The translations under genes and the position numbers were made by a program. DNA of 64,000 bases from Branchiostoma floridae (lineage: Eukaryota; Chordata; Leptocardii; Amphioxiformes; Branchiostomatidae), in the NCBI RefSeq assembly GCF_000003815.2, contig NC_049987.1, positions 16,023,329 through 16,087,328 of the forward strand. The letters are read 5' to 3'. Below are positions 4,457 through 55,405 of this stretch, one piece after another (the stretch's first letter is position 1; each line of letters opens with the position of its first letter). The notes beneath the pieces were generated by a model. The model was not told the DNA's origin, did no database searches, and was given only the letters and a program-made list of their open reading frames with translations.

Positions 4457-4916
4457 ATCGATTAACACACTCATATATCTTCAGCTTTACACACACATAT
4501 ATATCTGGCAGGACAAACACATATATGTTCGTCTGCACACATACACATAACACATCGAAGCACACGCTCTTATATGTTTCTCTATACACATGCACATATA
4601 CATGGTAGGACACACTCATATATCTTCAGCATTACACACACACATATATATGGTAGGACAAGCACATATATGTTCGTCTGCACACATACACATACACATC
4701 GAAGCACACGCTCTTATATGTTTCTCTATACACATGCACATATACATGGTAGGACACACTCATATATCTTCAGCATTACACACACACATATATATGGTAG
4801 GACAAGCACATATATGTTCGTCTGCACACATACACATACACATCGAAGCACACGCTCTTATATGTTTCTCTATACTCATACACATATACATGGTAGGACA
4901 CCAATATATATTTCAG
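4457..4916. repeat. 144-bp CA-rich minisatellite
   Basis: The phrase ACTCATATATCTTCAGC recurs at about 4469, 4613 and 4757, with a degenerate fourth copy near 4901, giving an exact period of 144 bases. Copies 2 and 3 are almost identical. Each unit contains smaller CA/TA blocks, so short reading frames are open on both strands and look like proteins rich in H, T, S and I. They are artefacts of the repeat. Confidence 0.85.
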
Positions 4917-5339
4917 CTTTAAAAGTACACACTCATTTGTTTCAGCTTCACACACACACTTGCGCACACAGACACACATATATATAGTATGTCACGTTCT
5001 TATATGTTTCGCTTTACACACACACACATAATTACGCACACAGACACCCACTCACATATTTACATACATGATAACTCAGTCATAAATTTCTGAAAATTAT
5101 TACTGTCACAAGCTATGGTCATGATTCTTTTAAAGTAGAAAGCTCTTACTAGTCGTAAAGAATTGGCGGCGGCTTAGGTCCCCTGTTTTGTTTGAGAAAT
5201 TGAAGGGTAGAACTCCAGAAATGTTTGACAAATCTTCATAACTATTTGTATGTTCATAGCTTAAGTGATGATGGATATAAGCTCACGCTACATATGCAAA
5301 GAAAAACAATGAGTTTAATATCNATCAGAGTACTTCAGA

Positions 5340-12600: not shown

Positions 12601-15600
12601 TCAACACGCTGAGTACTTCAACACGCTGAGTACTTCAACACGCTGAGTACTTCAACACGCTGAGTACTTCAACACACTGAGTACTTCAACACGCTGAGTA
12701 CTTCAACACGCTGAGTACTTTAACACGCTGAGTACTTCAACACGCTGAGTACTTCAACACGCTGAGTACTTCAACACGCTGAGTACTTCAACACGCTGAG
12801 TACTTCAACACGCTGAGTACTTCAACACGCTGAGTACTTCAACACAGTGAGTATCTCAACACGCTGAGTACTTCAACACGCTGAGTACTTCAACACGCTG
12901 AGTACTTCAATACGCTGAGTACTTTAACACGCTGAGTACTTCAACACGCTGAGTACTTCAACACGCTGAGTACTTCAACACACTGAGTATCTCAACACGC
13001 TGAGTACTTCCACACGCTGAGTACTTCAGCACGCTGAGTATCTCAACACGCTGAGTATATATCTCAACATGCTGGGTACTCAATGCGTACTGAGTACTTG
13101 ATGTGTACTGGGTACTTACAAGATTCTTCCAGGCACGCAGACGAGAAATGGCACGACAGGGGAATCATCATCACCACAGACGACAAAGCCCATGTCCCGA
13201 AGTCTCCGTCGGAAATACTTAGCATTTGCTGCCAATTGCGCAATCCTGAGTTTACCTGATTTGGAACCAAATAATGCAGGTAGCAAGAAAAAAAGACTTT
13301 ACCAGTCTCGTTATTGAAACATCTCAAAATTTGAACATTCAAGCAACATAGAATGCATAATTCATCTGTCCTATAAGGATATTCGGATTCTGCAAATGAC
13401 TGACTTTAGAATAAGCTATACACAATGTTGATATTTGCAACATTTATGTAAATTAAGGACTTAACATCACCTGCAAAAGGTCCCAATTTGAAATATATGT
13501 ACTTCATCATGTACAACTCTGTCTTAGCTACCTACATACGAAATGCCATGGAAACCCGTTCGGTTATTTGTTCGGTTATTCTTCATAGAAGATTTTGACG
13601 AAGCTCCATTGTAGTTCCAAAGCCGTTATGTATATAATCAATATTTTCATAGCACAAGTGGGGTGATAGACACGACAATTATCCGTTGTATATTTCTTCA
13701 AGCAAAAGAAAACTTGTTTCAGAAAGCTAGACTTACCTATTTCCGTACCATCCTCACCCATAATGATCCTCATAGATGATATGACTTGTTGTGCTACCGG
13801 AGCTGACATGGAACACGCGTACGTGGTGCTGTGAGAGTACGTTCGAAGGTGGTTGATCAATCTCTGAAAAAGAACATACTCTAATAAGTCTTGACAAGTT
13901 TGATTTACGAGTATTTTCGTACAAATCATAATTTGGATGGGTTATGCTAATACTTACCTTTGACCCTGCGATATAGCCCCCTGCAGCCCCAAAGCCCTTG
14001 GTGAATGTTCCCATCATGATGTCCACGTCCCTGGGGTTCACCCCCCAGTACTCAGTCACCCCCCTGCCTGTCTCCCCCAGGGCCCCGATGCTGTGAGCCT
14101 CGTCCAGATACAGGTAGGCACCATATTTTCTCTTCAGACGGATGACGTCCAGTAGCTTGACGATGGAGCCCTCCATACTGTAGATCCCCTCCACTATGAT
14201 GAGGATCTTCCTCCAGGCCCGGTGTGTCCCAGGCCTGCCGCTGATGATCGCGTCCCTTAGTTTCTCCTCTAAATCGTCCATATCTGGTACAATTGAGGGT
14301 TTTGTGAGAACGACCTTTTCGACAGATGATTGCAACAGTTTATGACACCAAAAGGCAGAAAGGCAATGTAGCAAATACATTCTCCTTACCGTTATGTTTA
14401 AAGACCTGGATGACAGATCCACCCAGACGTGCGCCCAACACGATGGAGGCATGGTTCTTCTCGTCACTCAAGATCAAGCAGCCCTATGGAAACAATATTT
14501 CTTTTGTATGCCTTGAGAATATGGCGGAATGGATCACATAGCCACATCACTATTAGTATTGTTATGTTTGCGGAAGCAGCAAAAATATTGTTTTCCTGCA
14601 GATATTCCTCCTAAACGCAGGAAAAGCTGGGGCTGTAAAATGCTCTATACGTTTCCAGCTTTTGCATTGGCCACAAAAGGCCTTTTCTCGGGGACACGTC
14701 ACATGTGAACCTATCAGCAAAACGATTGCTCAAACCGAGATCCAATGAAAACACAGGTTACAAAGCCTTTGGCTGTGAAATACAGCTTTTCGATTGGCCG
14801 AAAGTCTATACTTGTCATCGAATAAACCAATGAACGCACAGGACTGAAACTGGTCGGGCCGCCTTGAGCAACATAAAAAAAATAAGGTAAAAAAATCGGC
14901 CCAGAATCATGTAAAGCCACGTTGCATGGTGGGGAGTGATATGGCCTCACACGCTGGAAGGCGCAGGATCGAGTCCCGCAGGGTAAATGTTTTATTCCCC
15001 ATTTTTGACATGTATCGTTCGTTTTACACGAAATTTTCAATTTTTTTTCTTGCGCTCAAAAGACGTGCGGGGCGTTACGGTCTGACGGTCCGTGTGGGGA
15101 GGGGGGCTCGCCAACGCCTCGTTGCCTTTCTAGTTATTTCTTTTCTTGCGATTTTTTCCTTTTTCTTTTCCCTTCGCAAATATCCTGCATTTTTGTTTTC
15201 AAAAATGTTTCCTTTCTAGTTTCAAATGGGTTGCGATCGATGAAATGTTTGGAAAATAATGTTACATGCAGATGTGCTCAAAAGAAATTTTTTCTTCACC
15301 TTCAAAGCATTGAACACTATTGTTTTGGGTATCGTTGAATTACGCGTGCAAAGATATGTATGAACAATACTATGATAATAAACGATTAAAACAAAATGAA
15401 ATCAAATTAAATTCCATTCGTATAAAAGTACGTGTGCTGGATTATATTCTATACGTAATGCTGTTAAGTGGAAACATTTTTCTGTGCCGAAATATGCCAA
15501 ACATTCCAGAAAGTCCGTATGTTAGATTTTCCCATATCCGTAGCATCAGCAAAATAAATATAAACAATCTGGGATGGTGTATAAAAAACATTGAATGATA

Positions 15601-20145: not shown

Positions 20146-21354
20146 TTATCTACGATCACCCAGCAGCGTCAGTTATGCTTCAACTGTACCGCTGTAAGTG
20201 CAGTGCCTGCAATAAGTGCAGTGACCACTGTATTAAAGTTCAGTGACCGACCTTCTGTCGCGACACCGCTCCGGCCAGGATGGGAGAGTTTGCTAATCTC
20301 AGCTCGATCGGAAACTGCTAGCGTTCTTGACACAACTTACATTCTTCAGCACACAAACGACAACAGTGGCGCGCATACCTACCTACCTACAAGCATAGTC
20401 TCTTGGCCTCAAGGTCGTTTGGGAGGGAGCTCCGGTCAATTACCGCATGTGACACTGCGGTAGACATGGTAAAATGGGTAACGTTATATGCTCGTAAAAT
20501 TCCATAGCATGGTCGTATTGCAAAAAAAAATCACAGGGTGCTAGTGTTAATTGAATGAATAAAAACACCGGGCATATTATGTTGATATGATGGATTTTGA
20601 GGGTTAAAAACACACATTTTGGTTGAAAATATTAGGTTTATTTCATGCGCCCTGTCCTCGGTGGAGACAACGTTCTGGACACAGGATGACAGATTACCTC
20701 ATGTAGATTTACTTTGTCCGTCGCTATTTTGTTGTATGTTAATTCATCGTAACTTTTTGGGTCAAAATAGGTAAAAACGAGATGTTTTTCTCATTTATGG
20801 ACAATAATCCGCTCTTGAGGAAATCCCTTTATCACTAAACCAAATAGCTATCAATACATTTCTTTGAAAAGTGATTGTAAATGCAAATTTACCTATATTG
20901 TCAGCAAAAGTACTGTTGTCACTGGGTACCAAGCCCGTACATGTGACGGTAACGGTCCTTCAGAACCACTGCTAGCGCCGCTGTCGTTTTCCCGCCATTT
21001 CACATTTCGGAGGTTCGACCGTTCGACCGAACGCTGTTCGGACGGTACCATTTATGCGGCTTCCGCAGGGGCCTCTTTTTGTTACTCGCATCGAATTATG
21101 ACAATATTTAGTAAATATTTCATCCATAAAATCGCACACCGCACCATTGCACGTGTGGTGGGTTCTTTGGCGTGCTTGAGTTGGGACTGAACTAGGTACG
21201 TAACACGCTGCTAGCTGCCGCTGAGCCAAATAAGCTTCCGCTACGCCAGGCGATCTCACACTTTTAGAACTATATTAATTTGAATCTTGCTTTACTTACA
21301 ATAGTTCAAAACTAATAGAAGATTATCTAAAGCCCCTGGTCCTAGTCCAAAATA

Positions 21355-22228
21355 AAACATACAAACACGAGCACGCGGTCGCGCGTAAACATACACTTAC
21401 ATGTAAAAACACACACTCGCGCAAACACACACATACATGTACAAACACGCACGCGTGCGCAAACACGTGCACACACATACATGTTCAAGCACACACGCGC
21501 GCAAACACACACATACATGTACAAACACGCACGCGTGCGCAAACACGTGCACACACATACATGTTCAAGCACACACGAGTGCAAACATACACATACATGT
21601 ACAAACACACGCGCGCGTAAACACACAAATACATGTACAAACAAACGCGCGCGCAAGCACACACAGACATGTACAAACACACGCGCGCGCAAACACACAC
21701 ATATATGTACACACACGCGCGCGCAAACACGTACACACATGCACAAACACACTCCCCGCGCAAATACACAAATACATGTACAAACACACACGCGCGCGCA
21801 AACACATAAATACATGTACAAACACACACGCGCGCAAACACATAAATACATGTACAAACACACGCGCGCGCAAACACACACATACATGTACACACACGCG
21901 CAAACACACACATACATGTCCACACACGCGCGCGCAAAGACGCACACACATGCACAAACACACTCCCGCGCGCAAACACACACATACATGTACAAACACA
22001 CACACGCGCAAACACGCACATACATGTACAAACACACGCGCGCGCAAACACACACATATATGTACACACACGCGCGCGCAAACACGTACACACATGCACA
22101 AACACACTCCCGCGCGCAAACACACAAATACATGTACAAACACACACACGCGCGCAAACACATAAATACATGTACAAGCACACACACGCGCGCAAACACA
22201 CACATACGTCATGTACAAACACACACTA
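21355..22228. repeat. CA/CG satellite of alternating purine-pyrimidine blocks
   Basis: About 870 bases are built from blocks such as ACACACGCGCGCGC, AAACACACACATA and CATGTACAAA. An 80-base higher-order period is visible between 21441 and 21521, and a motif ATGCACAAACACACTCCC recurs near 21.74, 21.95 and 22.1 kb. TA, TG and CG steps are abundant while TAA/TAG/TGA are avoided, so frames of 220-290 codons stay open on both strands. These frames are artefacts. The strict RY alternation would favour left-handed Z-DNA. Confidence 0.95.
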
Positions 22229-23378
22229 TCGTTGCCGAAAACATTTCCTACTTGGCAAATAAAGTAATAGCATGATACCGGTGAGAGAGCTCAAATAAGA
22301 AAAAGGCTTAAACAATTGAAAAACCTTTCTGATGGGATTTTATGTTAAATCCGGGCAGGTTGGAGTTGCTAGGGAAAGACCCTTTACTTGTAGAATCAAT
22401 TATAAATGATGACCATTTTTTTACCCCCATGAGATAGTGGTATCATCGCCAGATAGCTGCTTTTAGCCTAAAAGACTAATGGAAGTGCTCTAAATAGGGG
22501 GGTTTATTATATCTCAAGACTAGCGGTTTAGAAATCCTTGCAAATGCGTTTTGTGATAGTAGACAGAGCAGATTATCATTTGTGGGTAAGTTTGTATGGC
22601 TTCAAGTTTTTTTTTCAGATAATGACACATTTGTTTTTTCCACTTTTTCGTACGTTTACAATGGAAAATTCTGTTGTCACCGTATAGGACCTGCAAAATT
22701 TGCAAGTGCCTATTGCAGTGAACGCTAATGGGTAGAATGTGGGAAATGCATTTTGAATGTCATGGAAAAGCTTGTGAATCATTAGCTGTAGTGTGTTACA
22801 GTGAAACTTTAGTGAAAAAGTTTAAACTTTGCTCAATAATGAAAGGAAAAACTCACCATAAATTTTCGGCCGAAGACTCTCCCACCTTCGTCAGATGAAT
22901 GAGTGAGGCTTGTTTTGGGATGCTAGAACTGGAGCCTGGAGACGAAGACGTTTTGTCCAAATAACATTTAGGGTACGTGCAGTGCGCAGGGGACTACCGG
23001 TGTGAAGAACCGAGTCGGCATTGGAAACACTGTGCTGAGTGCAGTTTTTATACATATCTCAAAATAAAATCTAATATTTGCAATTATCATAACTTACAAG
23101 ATCATTGGACTTTTTCAAACACTGTGTACTAATTTGGCGGATGAAGCTTTATTTTGCTGTTTGGTATTGGGTTTTTGTTATTGGAGATGTTATCTTTTGT
23201 CGAGGGCCAGGGATGATACACAAAAATCCTTTCCGCTAGGTACTTAGGTAACCAAACATGCCAAACGAGCAGATACCGCCGCATGATACAAGCAGAACAA
23301 TGCGGGACCTGAGCACGCGACAACACCTCAGGGAAGGACGCTTGAGAATTAAAATATTTTACTTTAGAGGTTTCTGAA

Positions 23379-25735: not shown

Positions 25736-27543
25736 TGCATATTCATATGTTCGACATATAATCTATTTTCCACGATTGATTGTTCAAGATAATAGGCACA
25801 ATGTTACCTGTTGAAAACGGCATGAAGGCGTCGTGTGCCAGTAGCCGCCCGTTCTCGCCCAGGAACCTGGCGGGGTCGAACCTGTGTGGGTCCGGCCAGC
25901 GGCTCGGGTCCATGTGGAGGTCCCACAGGTTCACGAACACGTTTGTACCTGCAGGAATGTCGTACCCGAGCAAGGTAGTGTCGTCGGACGTGCGATGTGG
26001 GAGGAGTGGGATGATAGTGGCGATGCGCTGGATCTCCATGATGGTGGCCTCCGTGTACGGCAGGTTGACCCTGTCGCTGAAGGCTGGAGGACGATCCCGC
26101 CCAACAACCCTGTCCAGCTCGGCTTGAATCTTCTCCTGTACGTCAGGATACGCCGTGAGGTACAGAAAACCCCAGCATAAGGTAAGGGAAGAGGTTTCTG
26201 TTCCCGCGGAAAACAAATCAGCGATTAAGTACGTCAGAGTCATGTCGGGCAGGAAGCCCTGTTTTGTCTTGTTGAAGGCGTCGATAAAGTCCCGGATTTC
26301 ATCCGGTGCTGTGTTTCCGTGCTGACCGATGTGCTCACGGATGTAGTTGTAGAGTTCTGCTGTCAGATTCATCAATTCGTTGTACATTTTCCAGAAGCCC
26401 GGCAAGAAGCGGAGCACAGGGAAACAGTTTACGATGTATAGTTTATAGAATGTCACATTGATCCGTTCAGCAAGTGCTTGCAAACGACCAAATTTCGGGT
26501 CTCCGTACTCAAACCTCTTCCCTACCGCCATGGAGACGATGATGTTAGACACAGAAGTTTCCAGACGATCCCTGAGTTCCACAGGCTGTCCCACTAGAAG
26601 CCGCAGTGTGCTGCAGAAGTGACGACACTCCTCCTGAATCTTGTCCTCTAGGATGGTAGTCCCCATACCAAAGAACCGAAGCGTTGACACAGTGAAGCGG
26701 CGAAGTGCTCTCCAACGATCACCGTATGGACAAAAAACTGCACCTGAAACAACGGTTTGGTGTACATGGCTTTTAGTGTAAAGTAACGTGGTTTGATCAT
26801 GTAGCCTAGTCAGGCAAATGAGTCAAAATCTAGACTCATTATCATTATCAATCAGACAATGTAAAAACTACTTCATGAAGAACATCGTTGGAGCTTTGTA
26901 CGTATCTTAATAAGGCCATACTGTCGCGCAAAAGCGGATATATTTGAAACTAAGCAAACAACCAAGACACTGCCTAACACGGTCCTACCCAACACTGCAA
27001 ATACTTCCCGTCCCAGCCTAGATTTCACACTAGTTTGCACGGCACGTTTCAGGAGCTCCAGTTATCAAGCAAGTATGCCACCTAGTCTATATGAGCCCTC
27101 ATCAGCATTGCAGCAAATCCTGGTAGGCTATTCGAAAAATACATAAAAAAGGCTTCTGGATACAAACCAAAGTGCATGTTCACACAGCGCACTAGGTAGT
27201 AGTCTGGGCGGTTGGAGAAGTGCTTGGCCTTCTGCACCAAGGCCTCCTTTATAGCCTCACTGCCGTTAACAATAACAGCGTCCTGTAGACCGAACCTGAC
27301 GCTAAAGACGTCTCCGTACTGATAACGCCATTTCGTCAACTGTAAATGTATGTCTTTGGTCAGACTGGGGAGGTTACCGAGAACTGGCCATCCAGGCGGG
27401 CCGGGCGGAGTATTCCTCCGTCCATGTGCTGAGAATTTTGCGACCACAACTAAAGAAACCAGAGAGGCCACAAAACAAATCAGCACCACTGTCATGCTGT
27501 GTCCAGACAGAACTACCTGCATTAGGGACACGATTGTAGCCAT
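25361..27543 (-). CDS. Cytochrome P450, CYP2 clan, complete three-exon gene
   Basis: Exons are 27543-27168, 26743-25808 and 25539-25361 on the minus strand, phases 1 and 1, giving 496 residues. This is a microsomal haem-thiolate monooxygenase that would work with P450 reductase, with the substrate unknown. Seen in order are an N-terminal membrane anchor (residues about 13-35, VVLICFVASLVSLVVV), the proline hinge PPGPPGWPVLGNLP, the C-helix WRALRRF from residue 136, the I-helix oxygen-binding motif AGTETSS at 305-311, EIQR at 362-365 (ExxR), FDPARF, and the haem motif FSTGYRRCWG at 435-444 with Cys442. The last intron splits the haem motif after its Gly. The first intron donor is gtttgt. The frame is open four codons above the ATG without another ATG. 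An alternative label would be another CYP2-like subfamily. No frameshift is seen, so it is probably functional. Confidence 0.94.
25682..25733. repeat. Perfect (CA)26 microsatellite in the last P450 intron
   Basis: Twenty-six uninterrupted CA units lie between exons 2 and 3 of the P450 gene. The length suggests a polymorphic marker. Confidence 0.95.
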
Positions 27544-27864
27544 TGCGCCGACCACTACCTACTGTGTGAGTGGGTCCCGTAAGTGTTACCTGTAGAAGGG
27601 CGGGGCTTGGCTTTCTGTGTTTACATTGAGGCATTCCAAAACCACATGAAGGGGAGGGGCCAAATTAATCAGAACTAAGAGAATTGTACCTAGAATCTCA
27701 CTGAAATCAACAAAAGTATAGATGCAAGACCCGGGTATTCACACCGTAATTTTTTTCTGATCTTGATCAACTTCATCAGGAGGCCGTTTCCTTGATGATT
27801 TGTCAAACAAGAAATCTTTTAAGAAAAGCTGTGCATTGCCGCGTATTTTATGACTGAACTGCTG

Positions 27865-40434: not shown

Positions 40435-43400
40435 CTACCTCAAACAATCCACAATGCTCACTAGGTTGTAACCGGACTTCTCGACCAAATAGTCCATGAG
40501 AAAGACCGATATCATGTAACTGTCCGGGTGGTCCGAGTCCAGACTGACGATGCCTCCCTTGTTGTCCAGCTGTTGGGTGATGAAGCGAAGAGCTTTGGGA
40601 ACCCTCTCGACATCTCTGTACCTGTAGTAGTTCTCAACAGACAGGTACCATTTCTCTGTTTAAGAAAAAAAGAAAACTTTAAGTCATAAGTCACATTTGG
40701 GACGATACTTCTGCTGTAAGTAAAGGAACACAATGTATAATTCTTGCACAATACCATTTCTGTGATTTTACGCAGATTGAAATCGCGACATGGTTGGTGG
40801 GAGCAAATAAAGGAAGTACTGAGTTTTATCAATACTACATGAAGAACTCAAAAGGTACAGCGTTACTAGTCGTGTGAGACTTTGTAGAATAGCCTTCATA
40901 CAGGGCTTCATAGCTGGAGCCTACGTCACTTTTACTACCTGGGGCCCGGCCAGGCTTCTTGCGGGAGCGAAAAAATTAAGTTTATGCTAATGAATAAACA
41001 TTAGGCATACTGTTGAATTACCATTAATCTTTTATATCGTGCCATTTATCTTTATATCGTATTTTTCGTTCCCCAAAGCTGCCCAGCGGGGGCCCTTTGT
41101 GGAAATGTGACGTTATCCTAAGCCCGGTCCCCCTCTACATCTGCCGTTTGGGTACAACGCATCCTGAGGTGTAAATATATGGCAATGATACACAAGTTAA
41201 CGTTTAACACAACGCTACACGATGAGAGCTAAGTTTAACATTCTAGACTAAATAGTTAAGCGGTGAAAAAAAAAACCTCACACCTCCCGGAAGTAAGTGG
41301 AATAAGTTCTGCAAATAATTTTGAATGCCTATGCGGACAAGTAAAACATATAGCAGATAGGCACTCTATGTAAAATTAGATTATACTAAAAGTAGATTTC
41401 CCTACCATTTCTTTACATAGCAGGCGGAATCTACCATATAGTACTGCGTACCAAGGCTCAGTGAAACAAGTTGCAACGTCATTGCATCATACAGACATGT
41501 TTAAAAATGGTGATCTTTCGAGGGGATACATGCCCACATATAGCTACTCACTGTTTTGTGTGACTGACTCAGGGCGGTGTGTCTGATGACAGTTTCGGCG
41601 TAGTTTCTGTGAAACCTAATCTTAGCCAATTTCTTGCATTTTTGAAGGGAATGTAACCCGAGATTGTTGATACCCTAAAAAAATAGACTAAGTTCATGTT
41701 GTATTATTTTCCGAAGTGAAAAAATATATTATAGTCGGGTCAAAGAACCGTCAAATTGATCATGCCAAATGCTCTGTGCTGGCGGCCCTGGTTGGGTGCT
41801 GGAGTCAGGACATTGTTTCTACTCGCCCCTTACAATGAGCATTTTAAGGAAAAGATCTTGATTGTTAGCCTATGGCTACTTCTCATCAATGAGAAACCCC
41901 CGTTTTCTATCGCTATATCAACATGACGTGCGGGACTATAAAATTGTTTGGCTATTTCAGGCAAATGAGGATAAAGGTGTGTTGATATCAATCAAAACTG
42001 TAGTGTTAAGAAAAGGAAATATATGGGTGCTATATTGTATTCTGTCAGAGCAGAACTAGAAAACATACGTCTTTGTCACTCTCCCCCGTGCTTTTACTTC
42101 GCATCTGACCAATCCTCTTCTAACTTTGAGCCCCTCAACTGGGTGGCGAGGGAGTTGTTGTTTACAAACAGGAGGGTCTGATTCCTCATGGTATTTCTAA
42201 CCGAGGAGACTGGAATTATAACTACAATTACTATTTTAACCTCCTTGTTCTAAGTTAAACTCAGACTTTGAGCAGCTCATTTTCATTCCCAAACACTAGG
42301 ATATAAAATTATGCTACACAGTTGTTGTGCAGGTCATTCATATGAATGTTTTGTTCTAGATAACATTTTCTATTTTTTGGGCAAAATTACATTGTGTACT
42401 TGAAAAGTTCATAGTTAAAGAAAAAAAAATACCATCGGTTGGAGGGAAGCGAGCTGTCGGTTGAATAATCCTCAGGCCACGAGACTTGGCTTTTTGTATC
42501 ACGGCGTTTGTCACCTTTACAGGGAAATAATAGGCTGTTTGCAGATCCACTTCGCTCAAGCGTTGCATCGCACTAACCAACCCTGTCTGGATCCAGGACG
42601 GTGACTGTAGCGTAAACTGTCCTAGCGGAAACGGTTGGCTCTGCAGGGAAAAAAGCATCATCGTTGGGTACAATAACTTAATTTTTTGTTTGTATGTGTC
42701 ATAGCTGCGATGGATAGAGTATAGATGCGGACCATATGTGAAATGTGCAGAGGTAGGTTCAGTCCATATTTAGACATTTAGACCAGACCATTTAACTCTA
42801 TCTAGATGGGAGGTAGCTAGGGGTGCCGGAGCTAAAAGTGCCTGCGCCAAATTTGACATCGTAAAAGTGCCGAACGACGTGACGTGTGCTAGTGATAGTT
42901 TCTGACTGGCATATTGTACCAAATTTTCTAATTTCAGTTTGAATAATGTTTCAAGGTTTTAATGCTGAAACAAAGGCTATTCTATATCGTTATCATCCTA
43001 TTTTGTGCTACATTCCTTAGATATGAATAGACAATGCTAATTCCATGACGTCATGGGCTTTAATTTAAGATGTCATTATTGACGACAAAATCAGGTTATT
43101 CTTTTACTCAATTTCAACAGATTTCCGTTTTTTTTACAAAACACATTTTAGCTAGAAGCCTAATAGTTCTCCTTTATTAACACATGACATACTTTTTAGC
43201 TTTCTACCATGAAATGAAGTGTATTTATAAACTGTCCATATTAATTATGCAAATTAGTCCCTGATATGCATGATTTGCATTTGATTGTGTAAGGCATCTC
43301 TCTTTAAGGCTATCTTCATTCCAAATACCATGAAGATCAGTCAACCCATTCCCGAGTTATTCCTACAAAAATTCCTGACATGCCTTGGGAAAATTGCTGA

Positions 43401-46400
43401 AATTTTGGGAATTTTTGCCAAACGGACGCAGAGTATACTATTAGGCTAGCCCCTGTGGCGTCGCCAAAAACCGTTACCGTACCGGTACCCACCACTAGTG
43501 ACAACCCCTAATTGATGTATATTTGAAAATATCAAAGAATGTCTAGAGTAAGAAATATATATATATTAATATGTAACTGTACCTAGGTACTAAATGCCAT
43601 AATTTGTACCTTGTACAAATGAAACAAGAGTTCGTAGACCTCATACATACATGGGATACTGTTAGTAGATTTGTTATTTTTAACGGAGGTGGAGTTCAAG
43701 ATGACCACACCCTTGTTATCCCGTCAGAAGAAATTAGAGGGCAAATTAACGTACATTTGGTAACGTGCCTGAAGTAATTGTAGCTATAATAAGAAACTAA
43801 AACATTAAACACCATACAGCACTTGAAGCACCACAAAGACTAACCAGAAACACGAACAAATGCGCCCCTATTAGTAAATGGAATGTAGTCTGAGCCTTAT
43901 GTGGCTCAGGGGCAACAATGGTCTCTGGAGTGATTTCTGTTAATTAAAAGTTGTTAGAACAAAAAAAAATGTAAGGAACCCCCAAATGCACACAAAAATC
44001 AGCATTCTGTACCAGGTTCAAAGTCAATTAGGCCAAAAATCGAACCTGACGGTCTGGTCAACACAACCAACCAATGTACCAAATACCATTGCAATAGCAC
44101 GCTGCAAACTGTTGATATATCGAATAAGAAACGCATAAAAACACAGAACAGGAAACTGAAAAGTATACCTGCATTTTTCATGCAGGTAATTAAGTTACAA
44201 AATGTATTATGTATAAATATACGAGTATGAGGAAAGGGTATACCCATAATTGAATAATACAACAAATCAAAACGAAACAAGCCTCACCTCGCGCATGCCT
44301 ATTGTGAAAGTTTTGGCCCATTCCTTCACCAGTTTGGGAAACGTTTCCACGAAGTCTCCATAGACGAAGAGTGTGACCGGCATCCTGCTCGAATGAGCTG
44401 CTATGGTCTCTACCAACTTGTGTGCGGCCTTAGCGTTCATACCGACTAGAACTGCCAGTGTAAGGCGAGGGGGCCCCGATGTGGCAGCATGGCACTCGGA
44501 GTAGACTGTGCCCGGAGAGCCGACAAACCTGTCGGATGCCTTAGATACAAGACATAAGAGAATGGTGTGAATTGCATGAACATGTAATTGCCCTCTACAA
44601 TGTGATTGCAAGATGTGATTGAATAGGTGTATGAACAGCCTTAGTCGCTCTTCCTGACGGTCCATTATGCATGAATCTCTCAGTTCACACTTCAATGACA
44701 TTAAGTATAAAACTATAAACAATAAAATTAGTGATGAAAATTCAACTGACAGTGATTCTTTGTGCAGTGGCAACTCCACAATGCCCAAACAGTGGGTAAA
44801 CTCTAAAATGTACCCAATGACGTCGGTGATTACAAGCGTTATTTTACGCCAAAATTCAATAAATCTTTTCTTATAATAGGACAATATCTTGCATCTATTG
44901 TGGTAGGATGTGAAATCTGGGGTAGCCCTGCGCAAGACAATAGAGTCAGCTTAAACTCCAGAAAGTCCTTTGTAAGGTTTTACCGGACCCTTTAACAGTA
45001 ACCTAGAAAATGACAGTAGGGATTGAAGAGATGAATTGTTAATGGGATGGGAAACAGCCACTAGCAACTGACAATGGATTATAATAATGAACCACCTAAT
45101 AACACACTGACATACCTCGAACATAATGATTTTCCTTGAAATCCTTTCAAATTCTTTTCGATTTCAACATTTCAATTTTGGCTCCAAAGTTTTGCTATGT
45201 GACTCACCAACGAAGGATGTAAGGTGTCAAAGTCATCATATTTTCTGTACTCGGCCGCCCATTCCATCATAGGTTTGCCTTTCGTCTGCACATCCGACTC
45301 AAGTTCTGCCATTTGTGCTTTGTTCCAGCCTGTGACAGGCTGCCAGGAGTGATACTCCCCGTAAAACCTGTGTACATTAATGGAAACATGATGTGAATAT
45401 TACTAAATAATTAAAGCTTTGTTGATGCTATTACATCCGCAAGAACTCAAAGTAACTTAAAAATGGAGGTATGTGGGAAGGATTCGGAAATACGAAGGTC
45501 AAGGTCGATTGCGGGGCCCCTGGTGCATGACCTTGGTTCCGCAGTAAAACTTCCCGCTTTTCGAACATTTTCCTTGATATGCTATGATTCTGATGTTAAG
45601 GTGGAAAGGGGCTTTCGGTGTGAGGTGTGAAGACGTAACGACAAAAACAAACTAGAGTTCCACGAACACATTCCTTTGCCAAATAAACCAGGATTGTTAT
45701 GTAGAATGATGTCTGTAGACATAAAAGTGTTACTCATTACATTCTATTTTATATGTTATTTGATAAAGTCAGACTAAATCTTATCAACTAGATTTCGACA
45801 ACCTCATACATCCATGAAATATTAAGAACTTTTGTAGATGTTATGCAAATGACCTACTAGGGGCCCCCAAATCCATCCATTAGTCATTGTTATTATGAAC
45901 ATCCTTCCCTAAGCTACCTACATCCCTAAAATGACAATTCGACGTTTATTTCTCCAGTTATCCCCATTTAAATATCTTGACAAAAACGCCTCTGCAGATC
46001 TAAAATAAAATGTTAGGGAGCTCTCTGTTTTGCTAAGACCTGACCCTGCTACTCCCTGCATTGCCCTCATTTCAATATTATAATGACCTACTGTAATATT
46101 GAAATGAACAAGGTGCTACTAAGAACTCGTAAATATGCAATAGGCATAGTGATAATTGGCCTAGAGTTCCCCACCCTTCTTTTGCATTTGTTTACGCACT
46201 AATTTCGCACCCCCACCCACGGCCCTGTTGCAGTATTAGAGGCATGCAAGTAATACACATTTGTAACCCTTTGAGGAAAGTGGAGAAAATGAGATTATCT
46301 TATAACCCCATTCCACTAGGGCGGCGCTCTGGCCGCGCTCTCTCTCTCCGACCTGAAATTTGACATATCGCTCAAGGAATTGTACAGAAAAGAAACAAAT

Positions 46401-49400
46401 CTTTTTTACCCTTTGTACGTTTTGCTGTCCTCTTGGTCACACCAAGGAGGTTAAAAATCACCTCCTTGGTCACACCTAATGTGACTTGTACGTTTTGTAA
46501 GATATACCATGTGAGAAATCGAAGGTTACACCCTACAGTATTTAGGTCGCAGTGAGAGCACAGCGTGATCGCAGTCTAATGGTAGGGGGCCTTTAGTAAG
46601 GAATAAAAACTACAGACAAGTCTCTACTAGACTGAATACACAGACAAAAGTAATGGGAGAATAACCCTAGTATGGACTCTTCTGGCCAATTATTATTGTT
46701 TGTTTTTGTTTTTGCCAAATTTACATAGGACGGTGATAGACATTTCAGATTAGAAGACAAAAATAGCCACAAAGTGTACTTCCGACACCCCCCTCCCACA
46801 AACTCTGCTGAAAGTATAGTTTCTAGCCTACCATAGATACCAAAATGCCACTAAGAAATGGTTCAGCTCGCCCCGGCGGGGGTCGTCTAGGCGCAGTCGG
46901 CTGAATGCTTCTCCCTACACAATTTGGGACCTTCCAATTTGACTGTGTGTGCGTGATTGATTGTATGTGTACAGTGTATACATGTTAGATTAAAAAAAAC
47001 AGCCATTTTCTCTTCAAATACTCCTGGACCAGTGTTTGAAAATCTGTTTGAAAAACCCAAGCTGACTATTACCACTGAGCCCAAGCTGACTGTCTGGCAT
47101 GCCAGGTAAAGGTGTGACAAGCTCCATTGTTCTCCTAGGGTAGTCTGGTGCCCTGCTGTAGGAGACTAAGTCAACAAATGTTTAAAACAAAAGCGTTTAG
47201 ACAGATTTCCACCTAATTTTGCTCTTGTAGTAAGCCAAGGTCACGCGCCGATGTTGTACGTGTAGGGTTTGTTTATTTCGGGTGAAGCAATTCAACCGGG
47301 CAGTATTTGAAGCTTTTAGGCACCACAGATTTCCGACTGTTAAATAATTGTTTGTGTGATGTATATACATAAAATTTCTTGTTCTAACAGACAAAGGGGA
47401 CTCGCATAGTTTGATGAACATGTCTATCTATTCTGACTCTCACCTGGTGCTTCCGCAAAGGGAGGGGAACAAGTATAGACAAGTCTGGATCGCAATCATA
47501 GTCATTTCAGAAGTCGGGTCAGGAACCTCGAGAAAGTCCTTGTGTTTTTTGAATAGTGAATTTTGTGCACTGCTGTTTAATTTGTGGAAGCCAAGGCGGA
47601 ATTTTCCTACATTGCGGAGCATATTTGAACATATATTCGTACAAGTAGGTTATAGACAGGTTTAACCTTTTTGATTTGCAATATGCCGAGTTGAGTTGCC
47701 ATCTTCTAAAATAGTACATGAAAACACCTGTAAAGATTTTAGTTTCCTTTGTTGTTAGCTTCTTTTTTAAAGCTAACATGGTTCTAGATAGTTTTCTCAC
47801 TTTCTTGTCTCAAGGAATTATTCCAAAGTGCTTTATTTTGGTTGGACCAAGGAGGTTGAACTCTTTCAACCTCCTTGGTTGGACAAAGGAATTGCGACCA
47901 GACATTTCTGGCCATGAGTCATGAACTGACCAATTAAAGAGTCCCTGACTGCATTCTATGCATAATTAAAGATGAATACAGGTAATTACTTTGGACCGAG
48001 GCGCTAAAAACAATTAGTCTATTGATATTAATGCTCCTGTCAACATGATGGATTGGGTTGTCAAATTGATTGATTAGCTAAACACAGGAAAACTACAAAA
48101 TTCAAGCATGTAAACTTTAAAAGCAAAGACTAGCTTGTTTATTAAAACCTATCAAGTCAAAATGGCATGGAAAGAATGCAGAACAAGTGTGTTTGCATGA
48201 ATAGCTTTCTGGAAAATCAATTTTACCATCAGAAAGTTAGATATTGACAGTTAAATTTACAGGCAACCCCCCAAATTCTATCAAAATTTCTAAACTTTTA
48301 TTAATTTCAAGTAATCTAAAGTGTATGTTTATACTCAGTAAAGCTATTCGAAAAGTATACAGTCGTCTCTACATCCTGTAAAAAAATTGTTACTTTTGGC
48401 CATCTGCAACAAGTTGGTCTCGGGCAATATTTGTCAAAATTAGAAGAGTAAATGTATTAAGATATTGTAGAAATATTATGGTAATTATTGTTTAGTCTGA
48501 TACATAATTGGAATGAGCAGTATCTCTTCTCCACTTCTGCCAAATTATAAGCCATTTGGCCTCATAAAACTTGAGATAATGACATTTTTTCTACCAAACC
48601 CCCAATACCCTCTGTTTTGGTCTTAGTCACACCTTAGCAAAACAGAGCTAAAACTTGTCCAACTTTGTCACAGCGCATCACAGCCATGTACTACATAAAT
48701 GTCAAGACTATATCATGTCCGGGACAGGAGATACATTGAAGAAACTGCTGTAATAGAATATTCTTATTAATTATGCAAATAAGCTGTTACTTTGCGTAAT
48801 TATCATATCATTATGTAGGTCTTTACTTAGGCTATATACATACCAAAAATCATGCATATCCATTACACGTTTATATTCTCCCATTAATTATGCAGGTGAG
48901 CTTTCAATTTGCAGAATTTTTCTCAGCTACATATATGACAAGTATATAGTACAACTACCATTGACTGCAGTGGATTTATAAACTTTCCTCATTAATTATG
49001 CTAATAAGCTGCTGATTTACATAATTACTCTGCCATTATGTAAGTCTTCACTTTGGATATCTACATACCGAAAATCATGACGATTCGTCAGCACGTTCAT
49101 ATTTTCTCATTAATCATACAAATAAGGTCGTAATTTGCATACTTATTATATATTGAAATTACTCTTTTTCTCAGCTATATAGATGACAAGTTTGAAAGTC
49201 CTATCATGGAATGTAATGGATTTATAAACATTCCTCATTAATTATTCAAATTACGTGCAGGTTTGCATAATTAGTATACTATTTTGTAAGTCATTACTTC
49301 GGCCATCTACATAGTTACCAAAAATCATGACCGCCTGTTAACACGTTCTCGAGTTATTCCTGTCCAATGTTTAAAAGGAAACCGGCGCCTGCAGTTCCAA

Positions 49401-52400
49401 AAAAGCCCAAACTCGCAGCATTTGCTGTCTGCCCTAATGGCTATCTAACACCAAAAATCACGAACACAGCAAGTCCAGAACACGAGATATCAAGAATGGG
49501 AGTTCCGCTGCAGTACCTAAGCAAGCCGCTCTGGGTCTCATTATTGAACTTGACCTTTGTTGTTCCGACTCCTACCCACCTACTAAATATCACGATCATA
49601 CAAGCCTAAAATATAACCTTGCCATTCTGGCAAAGGTAAAAATAATTATCAAAAACACATCTTACCAAAGAAATTTAGTAGTATTTGCTCATAAATTATG
49701 AAAATTCTACCCCAATTTAATAGAATTGTATTTATCTAACAATGTTCAACTCAACTTAACGCAAAGAATTTGAAACGCATAAAGAATGAATTTGTATCAT
49801 AAATTATGAATTATACATTACTCTTTTCTATTAACATAGATTCATAGAGCACTTTAAAGACAGCTGTTTATATAGTTCTTTTAAACTATGATTCCCAGAG
49901 TTAGTTTCACTGCTATTATAAGAACACACACGTATATGTTTGTATGGATATGAGTTGTTTGGATTTTTTTTACTTAATGGTCGCCACGTAACAAGACCTG
50001 AAGGCCATTCAAGGTTACGGGTTACACGATTGTAACTGTAACAGCATCTCTTCGCCCTAGGTCAGAAACATCATGATTGAGACCAGCTCAATTGCTCACT
50101 ATGAGTGAGGATTAACTGAGCCAATATGCGAAGCAGGGGTAACGCGGGCTACTCGGTAAATTCCCTACCCGGTACCCTATTTTGGCCGTAATGGTTTGAT
50201 TCGCTCACACCGCACAATCGCACATGTTGTGGGTTCTTTTACGTGCCTGGGTCATGGCTCTCACCAAACACGGTACCTCCATTTAACGTCCTATTTGAAG
50301 GACCGCCCTAGCCGAAGCTAGGTACTCATCTTTACCTAAGTAAACTGAGGAAAGTCGTGTAAAGATCGGTGACATGGCAGCCGGATTTGAACTCGAGACC
50401 TATCGGTCCTGAGCAATACACGCTGCCACTGCGCAACGCGGTCTCTCATTGATCGCAATAATTTGCGTAATGTTCGAGTCTAAAATTGTAATGTGACGTA
50501 GTATTGTTTTCCTTTGTATCGTATGGGCCGCATATCATCGGTAATGATGCAAATATTTAGGAACTTTTGCACTGATTAAAAAAAAAAAAACTTACTTGTC
50601 CACCCACTTGAAGGTTCCGTCTTCCAGCATCTTTTTTAAAATATCATACTCTGCACCCTCCACGTCAAGCTTGAAGATGACGTAGTCCTCAACCTCCGTG
50701 TTTTCCTGGATCCAGCGGGAAAGGTCGACTGTCGGCACCGTTCGATGATGGGCCAACTTACGTGTGCCGCCTGTCTCGGTGTCTTTTTTCTCATTAGCCC
50801 AAGCGAAGAGTGACCCCCCTCCCCACTGCATGTCTACGGCGCTGTTCTTTCCCTTGTCTGGTGACCAGGCTGACTCCGAGTAAGCAGTCATATTTCCTAG
50901 TATTATGAAAATATAAAATATTTCAATAAAAACGTAAATGCCTTTCAATAGAATAAATCAGCTCTAGATGAAATCCAATACTAGCTACCCTGCCTGATTT
51001 GCCATGAATTGCATTCTGCATATAAATAATAAAAACAAAACACAAAACTAACACCTGCATTGATATGGAGTATGCTTATCTTACAGACTGCATTGTCAAT
51101 CACTCAAACCTGACTTTGACTTTGAATTTTAACATTGACTTTTTGACGATGAGACAAGTCATTACATGGGTCTGCCTAGGCAGCTTTGGGCTGGCGTATG
51201 GCCTTGTCACTTTCGGTAGGTACTGAAAAGTAAATGGAAAGTAGAGAATTAATTTTCCGTCTCCTACTAACCGTCCTTGTTGGACACCCCGGTAGGACAA
51301 TGTAGCACGTGATTCGGGTACGGCGCAAAGAACGGCGCCAGCCTCTCGTCTATCTCGAAGGAGTGTATGATGAAGTCCTGACCGTCTGGGTAGGTCTCCC
51401 TAAAAAACTGGACTGTGGACGCCACGTTAGCACCGCAGTCCAACAGAATCTTTCTTGGCTGACCTGCGGCTGGGGGCCTGAAACGAACAATAAAAATTCA
51501 GGATGAAAATGTATAGCCATTGTACTGTTTTTTTTTCTCTCATTTCTTTGTATTAACCCTATCTAGACCGGGCTTTTTGGGATTCCTGGGGCCGGGGGGA
51601 GGCTCTTTTGAACACCCCTCTTTGTAATTTTGAAACGGCTTGGGTTACGATCACCAAATTTGAAGATGATGTACTAGTAAAATTTCGACTTTTGTATCAT
51701 CTGTAATATTGATATCGTTATGACGTATTATGACGTAATTATGACGTCATAATAACATATTTTGGGCTTAAATCGTCTAAATATGAAATTTTCGCATACT
51801 TAAAGGTAATAAACAAAATGATGACTATAAAGGTTATGTTATTGGTGTCTAAGTCTGCTAAGTCTATTGTTACCAATGGCGACGAAAATGACGCCAATAT
51901 GACCCCCCCCCCGATCTAGATGGAGTTAATGTGTATTTGGTGGTTGTGGTATCTTTTTATTTGTGTTCCATCCTTTCAATCAATCAATCGGTCGCGTGCA
52001 TCATTTGTTGATGCGTGGCGGCTACAGACAGTCCAGATAGTTCGGGCTTGTTGTATTTGTAAATATTGTTTTACGCAATGAATGTTCAGAGGGCAATGCT
52101 GTCAAGAACGGTCTCTTGTGAATGATAAGTGATTTTTTCATTAATTATGTAAAAAATGTGGTTGTTATTTGCATGGATTACATCAGTTGATCATCTTTTG
52201 CGTAAAAACATAATGTGGAGAAATTATGAAATAAGCCTATAGTTGCATTACCTTATAAATAATGTAAATGGGACATGATTTATAATTGATAATATTCAAT
52301 CTAACATAGCTGCCGAAGGTCACAAAAATGAAATCCCCGTCATTCACCACTATGGTATTGGAACTTTTTTTTTCAAATTTACTATACAAATTAGGTAAAC

Positions 52401-55400
52401 GTTTGTATATTTGATTCTACAATTTCTCTCTATTTTAATTACATATGTCATTTGTTTGAGTAACCTATTATACAATCTATTAGATCTAGAAACTGTCCTC
52501 ATTATTTATGAAAACTAGCAATAATGCGCTATTCGATATAGACATTTAGCAGAAATTAACCATCATCCTACTTCGATTTTTTAAAACGTTGCCTCAAAAC
52601 CAGAATAGTCAGGAGCACCCCTATCTAATCACCTGACTGTTCCATGTGAGGTATTTTCAATTCCTAGTGAGAAAGCTACCCTTATACCAAATTCTTATAA
52701 TCTTTTTCTTGAACCTGGGGATTTCTTGCCCAGGGTAAGAATAATAAGGAAGTGCTCCCACTGTGACTTGTCCAGACGTTTGAATGGTGGGTTGACCCCT
52801 ATAACTACATAAACTCATAAACATCCCAGACTGTCATGATTTGAAACATGATTTGAAGAGTATTTGCATATTACTGGTCACTGCTTCAAATATTCTGTAC
52901 TGGTTTTCATAGGAACATCATCAAATCATACAGAATGACCCAAAGTAAGTAACAAAGTTACATAATGCAAGGTTTCAATTAGATAAGATCATGTGATAAT
53001 AATATAATACTATCTGCAGTTCTGGAAAAACAACTTTCTTCGAATTTCAAATCATCATTGTCAAAATTGTATCGAAGCACCTACTTGCATCTACATTTCG
53101 AACTTGAAAATGTCTTCCTTACAACTTATAGCTCTCATGACTTGTGTATGTAGAAACATAACTTGTAATACTTGACTTATAGTAAGAGACCAGTATAGAC
53201 CTATGCTCTGTAGAACTGTACAAACAAAAAACTGACAGCTCACACTGAATAGCAACCCAGTATTGTCATTACTTCATATTCTGGGCTAAATGTTCTTCAA
53301 CAAGCTACTTTCTCTATGATGTGAAGTCTTACTTCAATTTCGTATCTGTTGTCTCTAGATTTCAAACATGATTTGAAGAGTACTTTCTCAGTCAGGCCAC
53401 CACTGCTGTTAACTGCACGGGTGCCTGTAGCATGCTGAAGACCATAGTTTATATTAGCTGGTCTTTAAGACTTTATATAGTTTTACCAGCCACTTTAACA
53501 CAGGAACCAAAGATATACATTTTGGGTAAAAATGACGAATAGTTCCAAATTTTACAATTCTAAGTTTTGTAACCGATAAGTGTAAATGAGGTTCAGGTGG
53601 TACATACCTCACAAACCCTCATACCAGATTTCATGTCATCTGGTATTGATACAAAGACAAAAGACACAAAACTATAAATTTTTAGTCTAAAATAAAAAAT
53701 AAAAAAACTGAATCAAACAAAAAAATATTCTTCATTGCACAATCTTCTTTTAATTCTTCCAGAAATGTTTCGGCTACAATCTGTCGCCTTTATCGGTTCA
53801 AAATAAAAACTATCGGTGTTATATGAACGTGACAGAGCCAGTGCAATCTGAATTTAACCTATTGTGTTGTGACGTAATTACTTATATGGAATATTCACGA
53901 ACATAATATGTCAATCAACCTTGCTAATTTTTGTTGTAGCAAAGTTGCGGTCCCATACATGGCTAAGTTTATATTCCCTACGTCTCTATCAATAACTGCT
54001 GTAGGCTTTCTGATCCAGATGACATCCTTGACCCAACATGTTTATTTGTTGTCCTTTCTGCTGCCCATCCTACGACTTAGCCTCCTTCACCGGCGTCTCT
54101 AGGGCCTTGGCGACAGTTGTTTTAAATTTCTCAACATTGGCTCGATCAATTGCCCTCACATTTTCGGTGTTGAAAGTGACCGTATAGTAGTAATGATGAA
54201 ATGAATTCAAGTACGTTTTGAATCTACTATACTCTCTAAAGTAGAAGTTAAATGTCGACAAATGCCCCGAACTGGTGTCTCCTATGGTATCTTTGGAAGA
54301 AATCGGGCGATAGGCTACTAATATAAGTACAACGGTATGAAAGATCTAGGACACATGTATCCCCCGCCTATACGTACCTTGTGTGTAGTCATCCATGGTC
54401 ATCCCGGTGAACAGTTTTCCTGCAAACACTTCGGGTTTCCACCTTAAATGGCAGCCATCTTGTAACACGCCTAATATTTTATAAACCATTGCCATATCTT
54501 CACCCGGGTACTTGCCACCATGGCTTCGAACTCCCTTTTCGTCATCGTCAACAGTGCGCAAGCGCCAAACGAATGTTAGTTAGTCACAGAGTACTATGTC
54601 ACAAAGCAAGGCTGACTAACGTATCACGTTCGAGAAAAATCCATGTCAAGTGATTACGTCACAATACTGTCTAGACCATATCGCACCGATAGCATTTGTT
54701 TCATTTTGTACTTCATGATGAAGGCGACAGATGGTCTTCGACACGTTTAAGGAATAATTCAAAGAAGGCTGTGCAACGAAGAGGACTTGGTTGGATTGAT
54801 CTACTAACCTGATGAAGCTTTTTATGGATGAATTTGAAGTAATCATGAAAAGCAAGATATTTAAACCATATAATTACTGAGTGGCCCTGGAGTTCAAGAT
54901 ATCCCTGAGAGAAGGCTGTGGATTCATATAGAGCTCTACGGTTTGGCTCTAAAACTAACTTAAACTGTAAGTGGTCATCACTAAAAATCATTAGTGATTG
55001 ATAAGTGATCAATTAAGAGATAGTTTGGTCTTTCCAGGCATGACTACCCACATCTCGTCTGTTTTATTCTGTGTCATGGCTCAGTCAGAACGATATCTGC
55101 TAGATGTCTAGGACCGCTCTAAGTTACACAATTGTATATATCAGTTAAAGGTGAATATACGTTATTAAACCCTACCTTTCTTTGAACCATCGGGCATCTT
55201 CGGAAAAGAAGTTCTGTAGCGACTTCTTCGGCCCTTCGTAGACGTGGAACAGCCTTTCGGGGCTTTTTAGGTAATCTTTGCCGCGTGTCATGACGTAAGG
55301 AACTTCCGGAACCATAAAGATTCGTGCCACAAAGCCCCCTATTACGACCCCGATAATCAAGCCAGCCCATCGGCCTCTGAGGATACCGCGGAGTACTGCA

Positions 55401-55405
55401 TTCAT
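40435..55405 (-). CDS. Membrane-anchored FkbM-type methyltransferase fused to a degenerate NodB-like domain
   Basis: Seven exons (55405-55176, 51477-51272, 50896-50596, 45367-45208, 44539-44288, 42640-42433, 40655-40435) join in phase to 525 residues and TAG. Residues 13-31 (AGLIIGVVIGGFVARIFMV) form a signal-anchor after a short basic N-terminus. This implies a type II, probably Golgi or ER, protein. The FkbM (Methyltransf_21) domain is shown by the SAM-binding LLDCGANVAS at 88-97, an acidic HSFEID strand end, and FKLDVEGAEYDILKKM at about 220-235. From 325 to 525 the segment order resembles a NodB polysaccharide deacetylase: LTLAVLVG, then LFVYGDFVETFPKLVKEW, then YYFP at 420-423, then GGIVSLDSDH and YLVEKSGYNLVSIVDCL. 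The catalytic Asp-Asp of strand 1, the His-x3-His and Arg-Pro-Pro-Tyr are not present, so this part is probably non-catalytic. The methyltransferase call rests on motifs and the NodB call on pattern alone. Confidence 0.86.
43440..43900. repeat. Repeat fragments in an intron of the FkbM-type gene
   Basis: AACAAGAGTTCGTAGACCTC at 43624 is the 5' mark of the hairpin-ended family. CAAGATGACCACACCC and ATCCCGTCAGAAGAAATTAG at 43697-43732 match the interior of the mariner-like element at 30878-31773. This suggests that the latter carries, or inserted into, a copy of an older repeat. Confidence 0.4.
45430..46040. repeat. Dispersed repeat fragments, hairpin-ended family
   Basis: AAGGTCAAGGTCGATTGCGG, CCCCTGGTGCATGACCTTGG and TTGATATGCTATGATTCTG match the 10.3-10.5 kb part of the reference copy. 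ACAACCTCATACATCCATG at 45799 marks another 5' end. Both lie in intron 4 (counted in minus-strand order, between exons 3 and 4) of the FkbM-type gene. Confidence 0.5.
46303..46591. mobile_element. PIF/Harbinger-like MITE, 'CCCCCTTTCC' family, copy 4
   Basis: Left TAACCCCATTCCACTAGGGC leads to GGCGCTCTGGCCGCGCTC. The right inverse runs TTTAGGTCGCAGTGAGAGC to ATGGTAGGGGGCC then TTTA. The interior TCAAGGAATTGTACAGAAAA matches copy 1. It is interrupted by the 25-bp palindromic insertion at 46443. Confidence 0.7.
46435..46475. mobile_element. 25-bp palindromic insertion with 8-bp target duplication, copy A
   Basis: GGTCACAC (46435-46442) is repeated exactly at 46468-46475. Between them lies CAAGGAGGT..ACCTCCTT, an inverted repeat with a short A-rich loop. 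It interrupts the interior of the MITE at 46303-46591, where related copies have uninterrupted GGTCACACCTTTA or similar sequence, showing the pre-insertion state. Confidence 0.8.
47840..47884. mobile_element. 29-bp palindromic insertion with 8-bp target duplication, copy B
   Basis: GGTTGGAC (47840-47847) is repeated exactly at 47877-47884. The insert has arms CAAGGAGGTTGAA and TTCAACCTCCTT around CTC. The arms match copy A at 46443, but the target sequence differs, so these are independent insertions of the same minute element. Confidence 0.8.
48766..49370. repeat. Three tandem degenerate units of 225-246 bp
   Basis: ATTAATTATGCAAATAAGCT, ATTAATTATGCTAATAAGCT and ATTAATTATTCAAATTACGT start units at about 48766, 48991 and 49237. 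Each continues with CTACATACCAAAAATCATG-like and GACAAGT..TCATGGAATG-like phrases. They form the 5' part of a hairpin-family repeat whose core follows at 49380-49635. Confidence 0.65.
49380..49637 (+). repeat. Core and 3' end of a dispersed hairpin-family repeat
   Basis: It shows CGCCTGCAGTTCCAAAAAAG, ATCACGAACACAGCAAGTCC, AGTTCCGCTGCAGTACCTAA, CTTGACCTTTGTTGTTCC and CCTACCCACCTACTAAATA. It ends AAAATATAACCTTGCCATTC TGGCAAAGGTAA, again a terminal hairpin. It lies in the intron between exons 3 and 4 of the FkbM-type gene. Confidence 0.6.
50200..50446 (-). mobile_element. tRNA-derived SINE
   Basis: On the minus strand the first ~75 bases (50446 to about 50372) resemble a tRNA. They have an A-box-like TTGCGCAGTGGCAGCG and a B-box-like GGTCTCGAGTTCAAATCC spaced as in a tRNA gene. 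A non-tRNA body follows, with GGACGTTAAATGGAGGTACC and CACGTAAAAGAACCCACAAC. Body fragments recur at about 35.0 and 21.15 kb. It lies in sense orientation within the intron after exon 3 of the FkbM-type gene. Confidence 0.65.
51553..51929. mobile_element. piggyBac-like MITE flanked by TTAA
   Basis: It begins TTAACCCTATCTAGACCGGG and ends with the near inverse CCCGATCTAGATGGAGTTAA, so TTAA bounds both ends. It is 377 bp and non-coding. The middle has repeated TATGACGTAAT / ATGACGTCATAA words resembling CRE/ATF sites. It sits 75 bases upstream (gene sense) of exon 2 of the FkbM-type gene. Related starts (CTATCTAGACCGGG) occur near 57495 and 63768. Confidence 0.7.
54070..54495 (-). CDS. Possible nested two-exon mini-gene in FkbM-gene intron 1
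   Basis: Exon a, from the ATG at 54495 to 54378, reads MAMVYKILGVLQDGC and WKPEVFAGKLFTGMTMDDYT. A GTACGT donor leads in phase to exon b (54290-54070), which reads FNFYFREYSRFKTYLNSF and ENVRAIDRANVEKFKTTVAK, then TAG. Together they give 112 residues. The frame is open another 20 codons above the ATG with coding-like content (DDDEKGVRSHGGKYPGED) but no upstream start or acceptor was identified. It may therefore be a 5'-truncated gene or a pseudogene. Exon 1 and exon 2 of the host gene join in phase without these exons, so they are not host exons. Family not recognised. Confidence 0.4.

Follow-up and report, generated by a model that had tools for sequence, protein, structure and literature searches.

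Closest described systems

The closest described relatives of the gene considered here are the rhizobial methyltransferase NoeI, the animal Star family and the polysaccharide deacetylases of the NodB/CE4 family (PF01522; NodB, PdaA and PdaB). The gene lies on the minus strand of a 64,000-nucleotide stretch of the genome of the lancelet Branchiostoma floridae (assembly GCF_000003815.2, contig NC_049987.1, positions 16,023,329 to 16,087,328), hereafter the window. Analysis of this stretch and of the rest of the genome supports an architecture in which a single gene would encode a membrane anchor, an FkbM domain and a degenerate NodB domain.

NoeI, which is annotated as a 2-O-methyltransferase and matches PF05050 with an E-value of 2.6e-20, belongs to the same FkbM family as the window protein and displays the same S-adenosylmethionine (SAM)-binding and DVEGAE/DVQGAE motifs. 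However, NoeI has 243 residues and carries neither an anchor nor a NodB part, whereas the FkbM domain of the window protein is predicted to be anchored and fused. On the plasmid pNGR234a, noeI (FkbM) and nodB are separate genes of a single nod region, some 6 kb from each other. An FkbM protein and a NodB protein can thus act in the same oligosaccharide pathway.

Star carries a single N-terminal membrane anchor ahead of its FkbM domain, a layout that the window protein shares, and is not known to have a NodB-like C-terminal domain. In an annelid study, the Pfam domain that describes the Star family (PTHR34009, 'Protein Star') is Methyltransf_21, also found in the window protein, and this family is over-represented alongside carbohydrate sulfotransferases (PMC12403961). 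As for the NodB/CE4 proteins, their profile aligns collinearly with nearly the whole C-terminal domain of the window protein, although this domain falls below the PF01522 cut-off and lacks the Asp-Asp, His-x3-His and Arg-Pro-Pro-Tyr motifs.

Gene structure and the FkbM half

The seven exons (55405 to 40435 on the minus strand, Table 1) splice in phase into 1578 nt encoding 525 residues and a stop codon, all six introns being of the GT-AG type (6/6) with phases 2, 1, 2, 0, 0 and 1 that agree at each junction. Translation of the exons thus reproduces the 525-residue frame given in a preliminary description of this DNA, and both FkbM marks that it had placed in the N-terminal half, LLDCGAN and DVEGAEYD, are found in the product.

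The FkbM domain proposed on that basis is supported by two curated models, whose cut-offs are both exceeded: residues 90-234 match PF05050 of Pfam (E 5.6e-10, 40.0 bits for a cut-off of 22.7) and residues 88-252 match TIGR01444 of NCBIfam (E 1.8e-12, 47.9 bits for a cut-off of 37.7). Exon 3 is also the top PF05050 match in a genome-wide profile search. The motifs DCG-x-N (DCGAN or DCGGN), FE-x-D and DVEGAE, which we take to be the SAM-binding and FkbM signature motifs, as well as GE, are retained in eight copies of the gene aligned with NoeI. By the criteria tested, all of them drawn from sequence, the N-terminal domain belongs to the FkbM methyltransferase family. A phmmer search of this half against the PDB gave 18 weak matches, all to antibody light chains except one to a carbonic anhydrase.

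The short, basic N-terminus contains three arginines followed by one hydrophobic segment, the strongest of the protein, with a hydropathy maximum of 2.29 at residues 14-32, and this segment is predicted to be a type II membrane anchor. Two other copies have an alignable counterpart of exon 1, and three further ones show anchor-like ATG frames 5' of exon 2; none was found in three regions searched, the C11 region and those of both C1 copies.

The C-terminal half and the NodB deacetylases

The relationship of the C-terminal half to NodB emerges from the comparison of profiles. With hhalign, eight family members aligned with 10 NodB proteins over 168 columns (P 1.7e-4, score 33.7), a score reached by none of 300 shuffles (0/200 of the family, 0/100 of NodB; best 23.2) nor by the reversed profile. 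The signal increased with the number of sequences, reaching P 1.4e-7 and a probability of 94.0% for the same eight members against 39 NodB proteins, and P 6.8e-9, a probability of 95.8% and a score of 59.7 over 183 columns for 15 genomic copies against the same 39. In this last alignment, family positions 21-225 fall on NodB positions 7-196, and none of 200 column shuffles reaches the score (best 24.9). The NodB set used 29 of 36 viral NodB loci and omitted two of 12 plasmid loci from the profiles; on the family side, the C-terminal alignments omit the C2 copy at 34.46 Mb, which has an in-frame stop, and the incomplete C11 copy, the 15-row alignment leaving out six of the 21 C-terminal clusters. 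Chance likeness to NodB is ruled out by these shuffle controls (0/300 and 0/200), and the NodB order of segments noticed earlier in the last 200 or so residues is borne out by them and by the alignments. As judged by profile comparison, homology with the NodB polysaccharide deacetylases extends along the entire C-terminal domain. Furthermore, the PdaB match described below recurs in four of the eight members, and in a blind ranking of 102 open reading frames (ORFs) from three plasmid regions, done with single proteins and excluding ORFs of more than 1200 residues, the NodB of NGR234 came first with a score of 34.9, the next reaching 21.9.

Several results nevertheless weigh against this assignment. 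No Pfam family, PF01522 included, is matched by the last 226 residues of the window protein or by this domain in eight members, and these 226 residues gave no match in a phmmer search against the PDB or in a scan of PHROGs. The only NCBIfam match is to the polysaccharide deacetylase PdaB, below threshold (E 0.062). A profile search of the PDB returned three matches, of which the first, to the peptidoglycan deacetylase 4l1g, is also below threshold (E 0.18), with an alignment in register over NodB motif 1, and the second is to an unrelated adhesion receptor (E 0.23). In the blind ranking, the alignment with the NGR234 NodB covers 55 columns only, a Nostoc deacetylase ranked seventh, its alignment being full-length but not significant (P 0.063), and a Streptomyces deacetylase was not among the best 15 rows. 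The low-confidence model predicted from exon 5 alone (predicted local distance difference test score, pLDDT, 67) had no Foldseek match with an E-value of 0.001 or less and no NodB chain among the best 50 rows of VIA-align, and the model of exon 7 alone (pLDDT 61) is all helix where NodB has a strand. The exon 5 model has a strand-helix-strand-helix-strand order, and polysaccharide or chitin deacetylases occupy ranks 6, 8, 11, 44 and 47 of its best 50 Foldseek matches (E 0.6-1.9). Globally, the single-exon models neither support nor exclude a NodB fold.

The family alignment was also used to scan viral and prokaryote collections, which gave 27 and 35 pattern matches, respectively, and no relative. 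Another NodB fusion was observed on a Deinococcus plasmid, where a NodB domain lies inside a protein annotated as a glycosyltransferase.

Lost and conserved residues

The alignment of 15 copies with 39 NodB proteins agrees with the preliminary description as to the loss of the deacetylase motifs. Indeed, Asp-Asp and Arg-Pro are missing in 15/15 rows and His-x3-His in the 14/14 rows readable at this site, the 15th having missing letters there. The Asp-Asp column is Leu-Val in the window gene and Leu-Val, Gln-Val or Gln-Leu across copies; the column of the first zinc His is an invariant Arg; that of Arg-Pro-Pro is Phe-, Leu-, Tyr- or Cys-Pro or else Leu-Ala; and the late Leu-His-Asp of NodB aligns with a stretch containing LDSD. 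No row retains the set formed by the catalytic Asp and the metal-binding Asp-His-His. A true CE4 deacetylase is ruled out by these missing motifs and, as far as motifs can tell, the protein is not one.

Other residues are strictly conserved. Gly-Met, Arg-Glu (in the 14 readable rows) and Ser-Asp-x2-Asp-Ser are invariant in the 15-row alignment and located at the active-site motifs 1, 2 and 5 of NodB, Arg-Glu following strand 3 and Ser-Asp-x2-Asp-Ser lying near the last strand. They are what would be expected of a neofunctionalised second active site, i.e. of a two-headed enzyme in which a NodB fold devoid of its metal site would have acquired a different C-terminal chemistry. However, such residues are also expected of a binding groove or of a folding core, and one copy has Asn in place of the first Asp of LDSD, another in place of the Asp of YGDF; we consider this second active site unlikely. 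Towards the ends of the domain lie two cysteines, also invariant in the 15 rows, which could form a disulfide. A reading of LDSD as a GT-A type DXD motif was set aside, as LDSD lies about 30 residues before the C-terminus and the layout of the GT-A fold places DXD elsewhere.

Copies of the gene in the genome

The gene is one of many copies in the genome searched (513,431,437 bases in 431 contigs). An initial PF05050 search gave nine places, with C-terminal exons in 9/9 regions. Searches with protein queries then gave at least 19 FkbM loci and at least 21 C-terminal clusters, counts that are lower bounds as only the best candidates were scored. With one representative for each of the 19 FkbM loci (row C5:24746936, E 1.01, omitted) and with two of the 61 C-terminal matches omitted for E >0.05, a C-terminal cluster was found downstream, on the same strand and within about 10 kb, at 19/19 FkbM loci.

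This recurrence, rather than transcripts, answers the question of whether both halves belong to a single gene, as had been proposed. The alternative would be that exons 1-4 and 5-7 come from two adjacent genes or were wrongly joined in the prediction: several kb of intron lie between exons 3 and 4 and between exons 6 and 7, the gene model derives from the genomic sequence, and two C-terminal clusters (C1:33074767 and C8:4920741), both with in-frame stops, have no upstream FkbM exons. However, both halves occur in the same order and on the same strand at every FkbM locus found and the phases agree at the exon 4/5 junction, which makes two separate genes untenable and a faulty join highly improbable.

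Other copies repeat the same exon order and strand, and in two of them splicing of all seven exons, with phases imposed by the script, gives open frames of 515 and 521 residues. A more distant group (five copy regions) has an extra intron within exon 3 of the FkbM half, which suggests that the family is old. The C5 copy carries exon 6 as a tandem duplicate (8471-8620, partial, and 8649-8852 of its region). The C2 copy at 34.46 Mb has its in-frame stop in exon 5 (7516-7749 of its region), its exon 7 was not found in the region examined, and it is probably a pseudogene. Some copies are located in assembly gaps. The ratio of non-synonymous to synonymous substitution rates (dN/dS) lies at 0.08-0.17 in the 7/15 pairs computable for the FkbM half and at 0.13-0.36 in the 13/21 pairs computable for the C-terminal half: purifying selection acts on both halves.

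Proposed function

The reading that we prefer, with a probability of roughly one half, is that of a type II membrane glycan O-methyltransferase, probably of the Golgi, in which the degenerate NodB domain would keep hold of the acceptor glycan. Most of this reading is inferred. The N-terminal anchor would hold the protein in the Golgi membrane with both domains in the lumen, the FkbM domain would move a methyl group from SAM onto a glycan hydroxyl, and the degenerate NodB domain would only bind and position the acceptor, which would differ from copy to copy. In the relatives of this domain, a sugar chain sits in an open groove.

FkbM proteins of animals may act non-enzymatically, as may be the case of Star, and this goes against a methyltransferase. 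The product might instead be a Star-like trafficking factor, i.e. a non-enzymatic or weakly enzymatic FkbM relative, anchored in the membrane and serving as an escort along the secretory pathway. The Star family attests that a class of anchored FkbM-domain proteins exists in animals, and the window protein likewise has a predicted anchor before this domain. However, the FkbM signature motifs are retained in the aligned copies, Star is not known to us to bear any NodB-like domain, and at least 19 loci suit glycan diversification better than a single escort; such a role appears quite unlikely. Returning to the glycan methyltransferase, a broader proposal can be made, albeit tentatively and with considerable doubt: in a large family of at least 19 loci, a NodB domain would have lost its metal site and been remodelled on a new invariant set, Arg-Glu and Ser-Asp-x2-Asp-Ser, the two-domain enzymes of the family would carry out glycan methylation in the secretory pathway, and the second domain would read or modify glycans.

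Exons and other features of the window

Besides the exons, Table 1 lists other frames of the window. The aminotransferase frame resembles a serine palmitoyltransferase-type exon. The second, possible P450 frame looks, by eye only, like the CYP2-like N-terminal exon of the same P450.

Table 1. Positions in the window of the seven exons and of other frames
Feature	Position	Strand	Content
Exon 1	55176..55405	minus	Codons 1-76 and part of 77: start codon, basic N-terminus, predicted hydrophobic anchor (about 14-32), stem
Exon 2	51272..51477	minus	Codons 77-146: FkbM domain, SAM-binding motif LLDCGAN, FEID
Exon 3	50596..50896	minus	Codons 146-246: FkbM domain, motif DVEGAEYD
Exon 4	45208..45367	minus	Codons 246-299: end of FkbM domain (YGEYH) and linker; TIGR01444 reaches residue 252
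Exon 5	44288..44539	minus	Codons 300-383: first part of the NodB-like domain, from strand 1 into the region of strand 3
Exon 6	42433..42640	minus	Codons 384-453: middle of the NodB-like domain, without the Arg-Pro-Pro-Tyr motif
Exon 7	40435..40655	minus	Codons 453-525, then the stop codon: last part of the NodB-like domain, containing GGIVSLDSDHPDS
Aminotransferase class I/II frame	13754-14467	minus	PF00155, E 2.6e-15
Cytochrome P450 exon	25743-26822	minus	PF00067, E 1e-81
Second, possible P450 frame	27082-27558	minus	
Long frames	21342-22290 and 4466-4987	both	ACAC-type simple repeats

Novelty and implications

No description of a fusion between FkbM and NodB was found in a search confined to the literature, with few subscription journals and no eukaryotic protein database; within that scope, the result agrees with the earlier remark that no described animal protein of this architecture was known to its author. 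A gene model or a database entry may well exist already. What is new, as read from the predicted protein, is the fusion of an FkbM family member to a degenerate NodB domain unrecognised by Pfam.

Methylated glycans are reported in many invertebrates in two publications (PMC6272458, PMC6994554), one of which, a review, mentions methylated KDN on ovary O-glycans of a lancelet (PMC6994554). If the broader proposal made above is true, the family would be a candidate for the methyltransferase behind the methylated sialic acids of this lancelet. More largely, a multi-copy family of anchored FkbM proteins with a second domain of a glycan-binding type would provide direct candidates for glycan methylation, and would clearly illustrate, in an animal, how a deacetylase fold can be maintained by selection after the loss of its catalytic residues.

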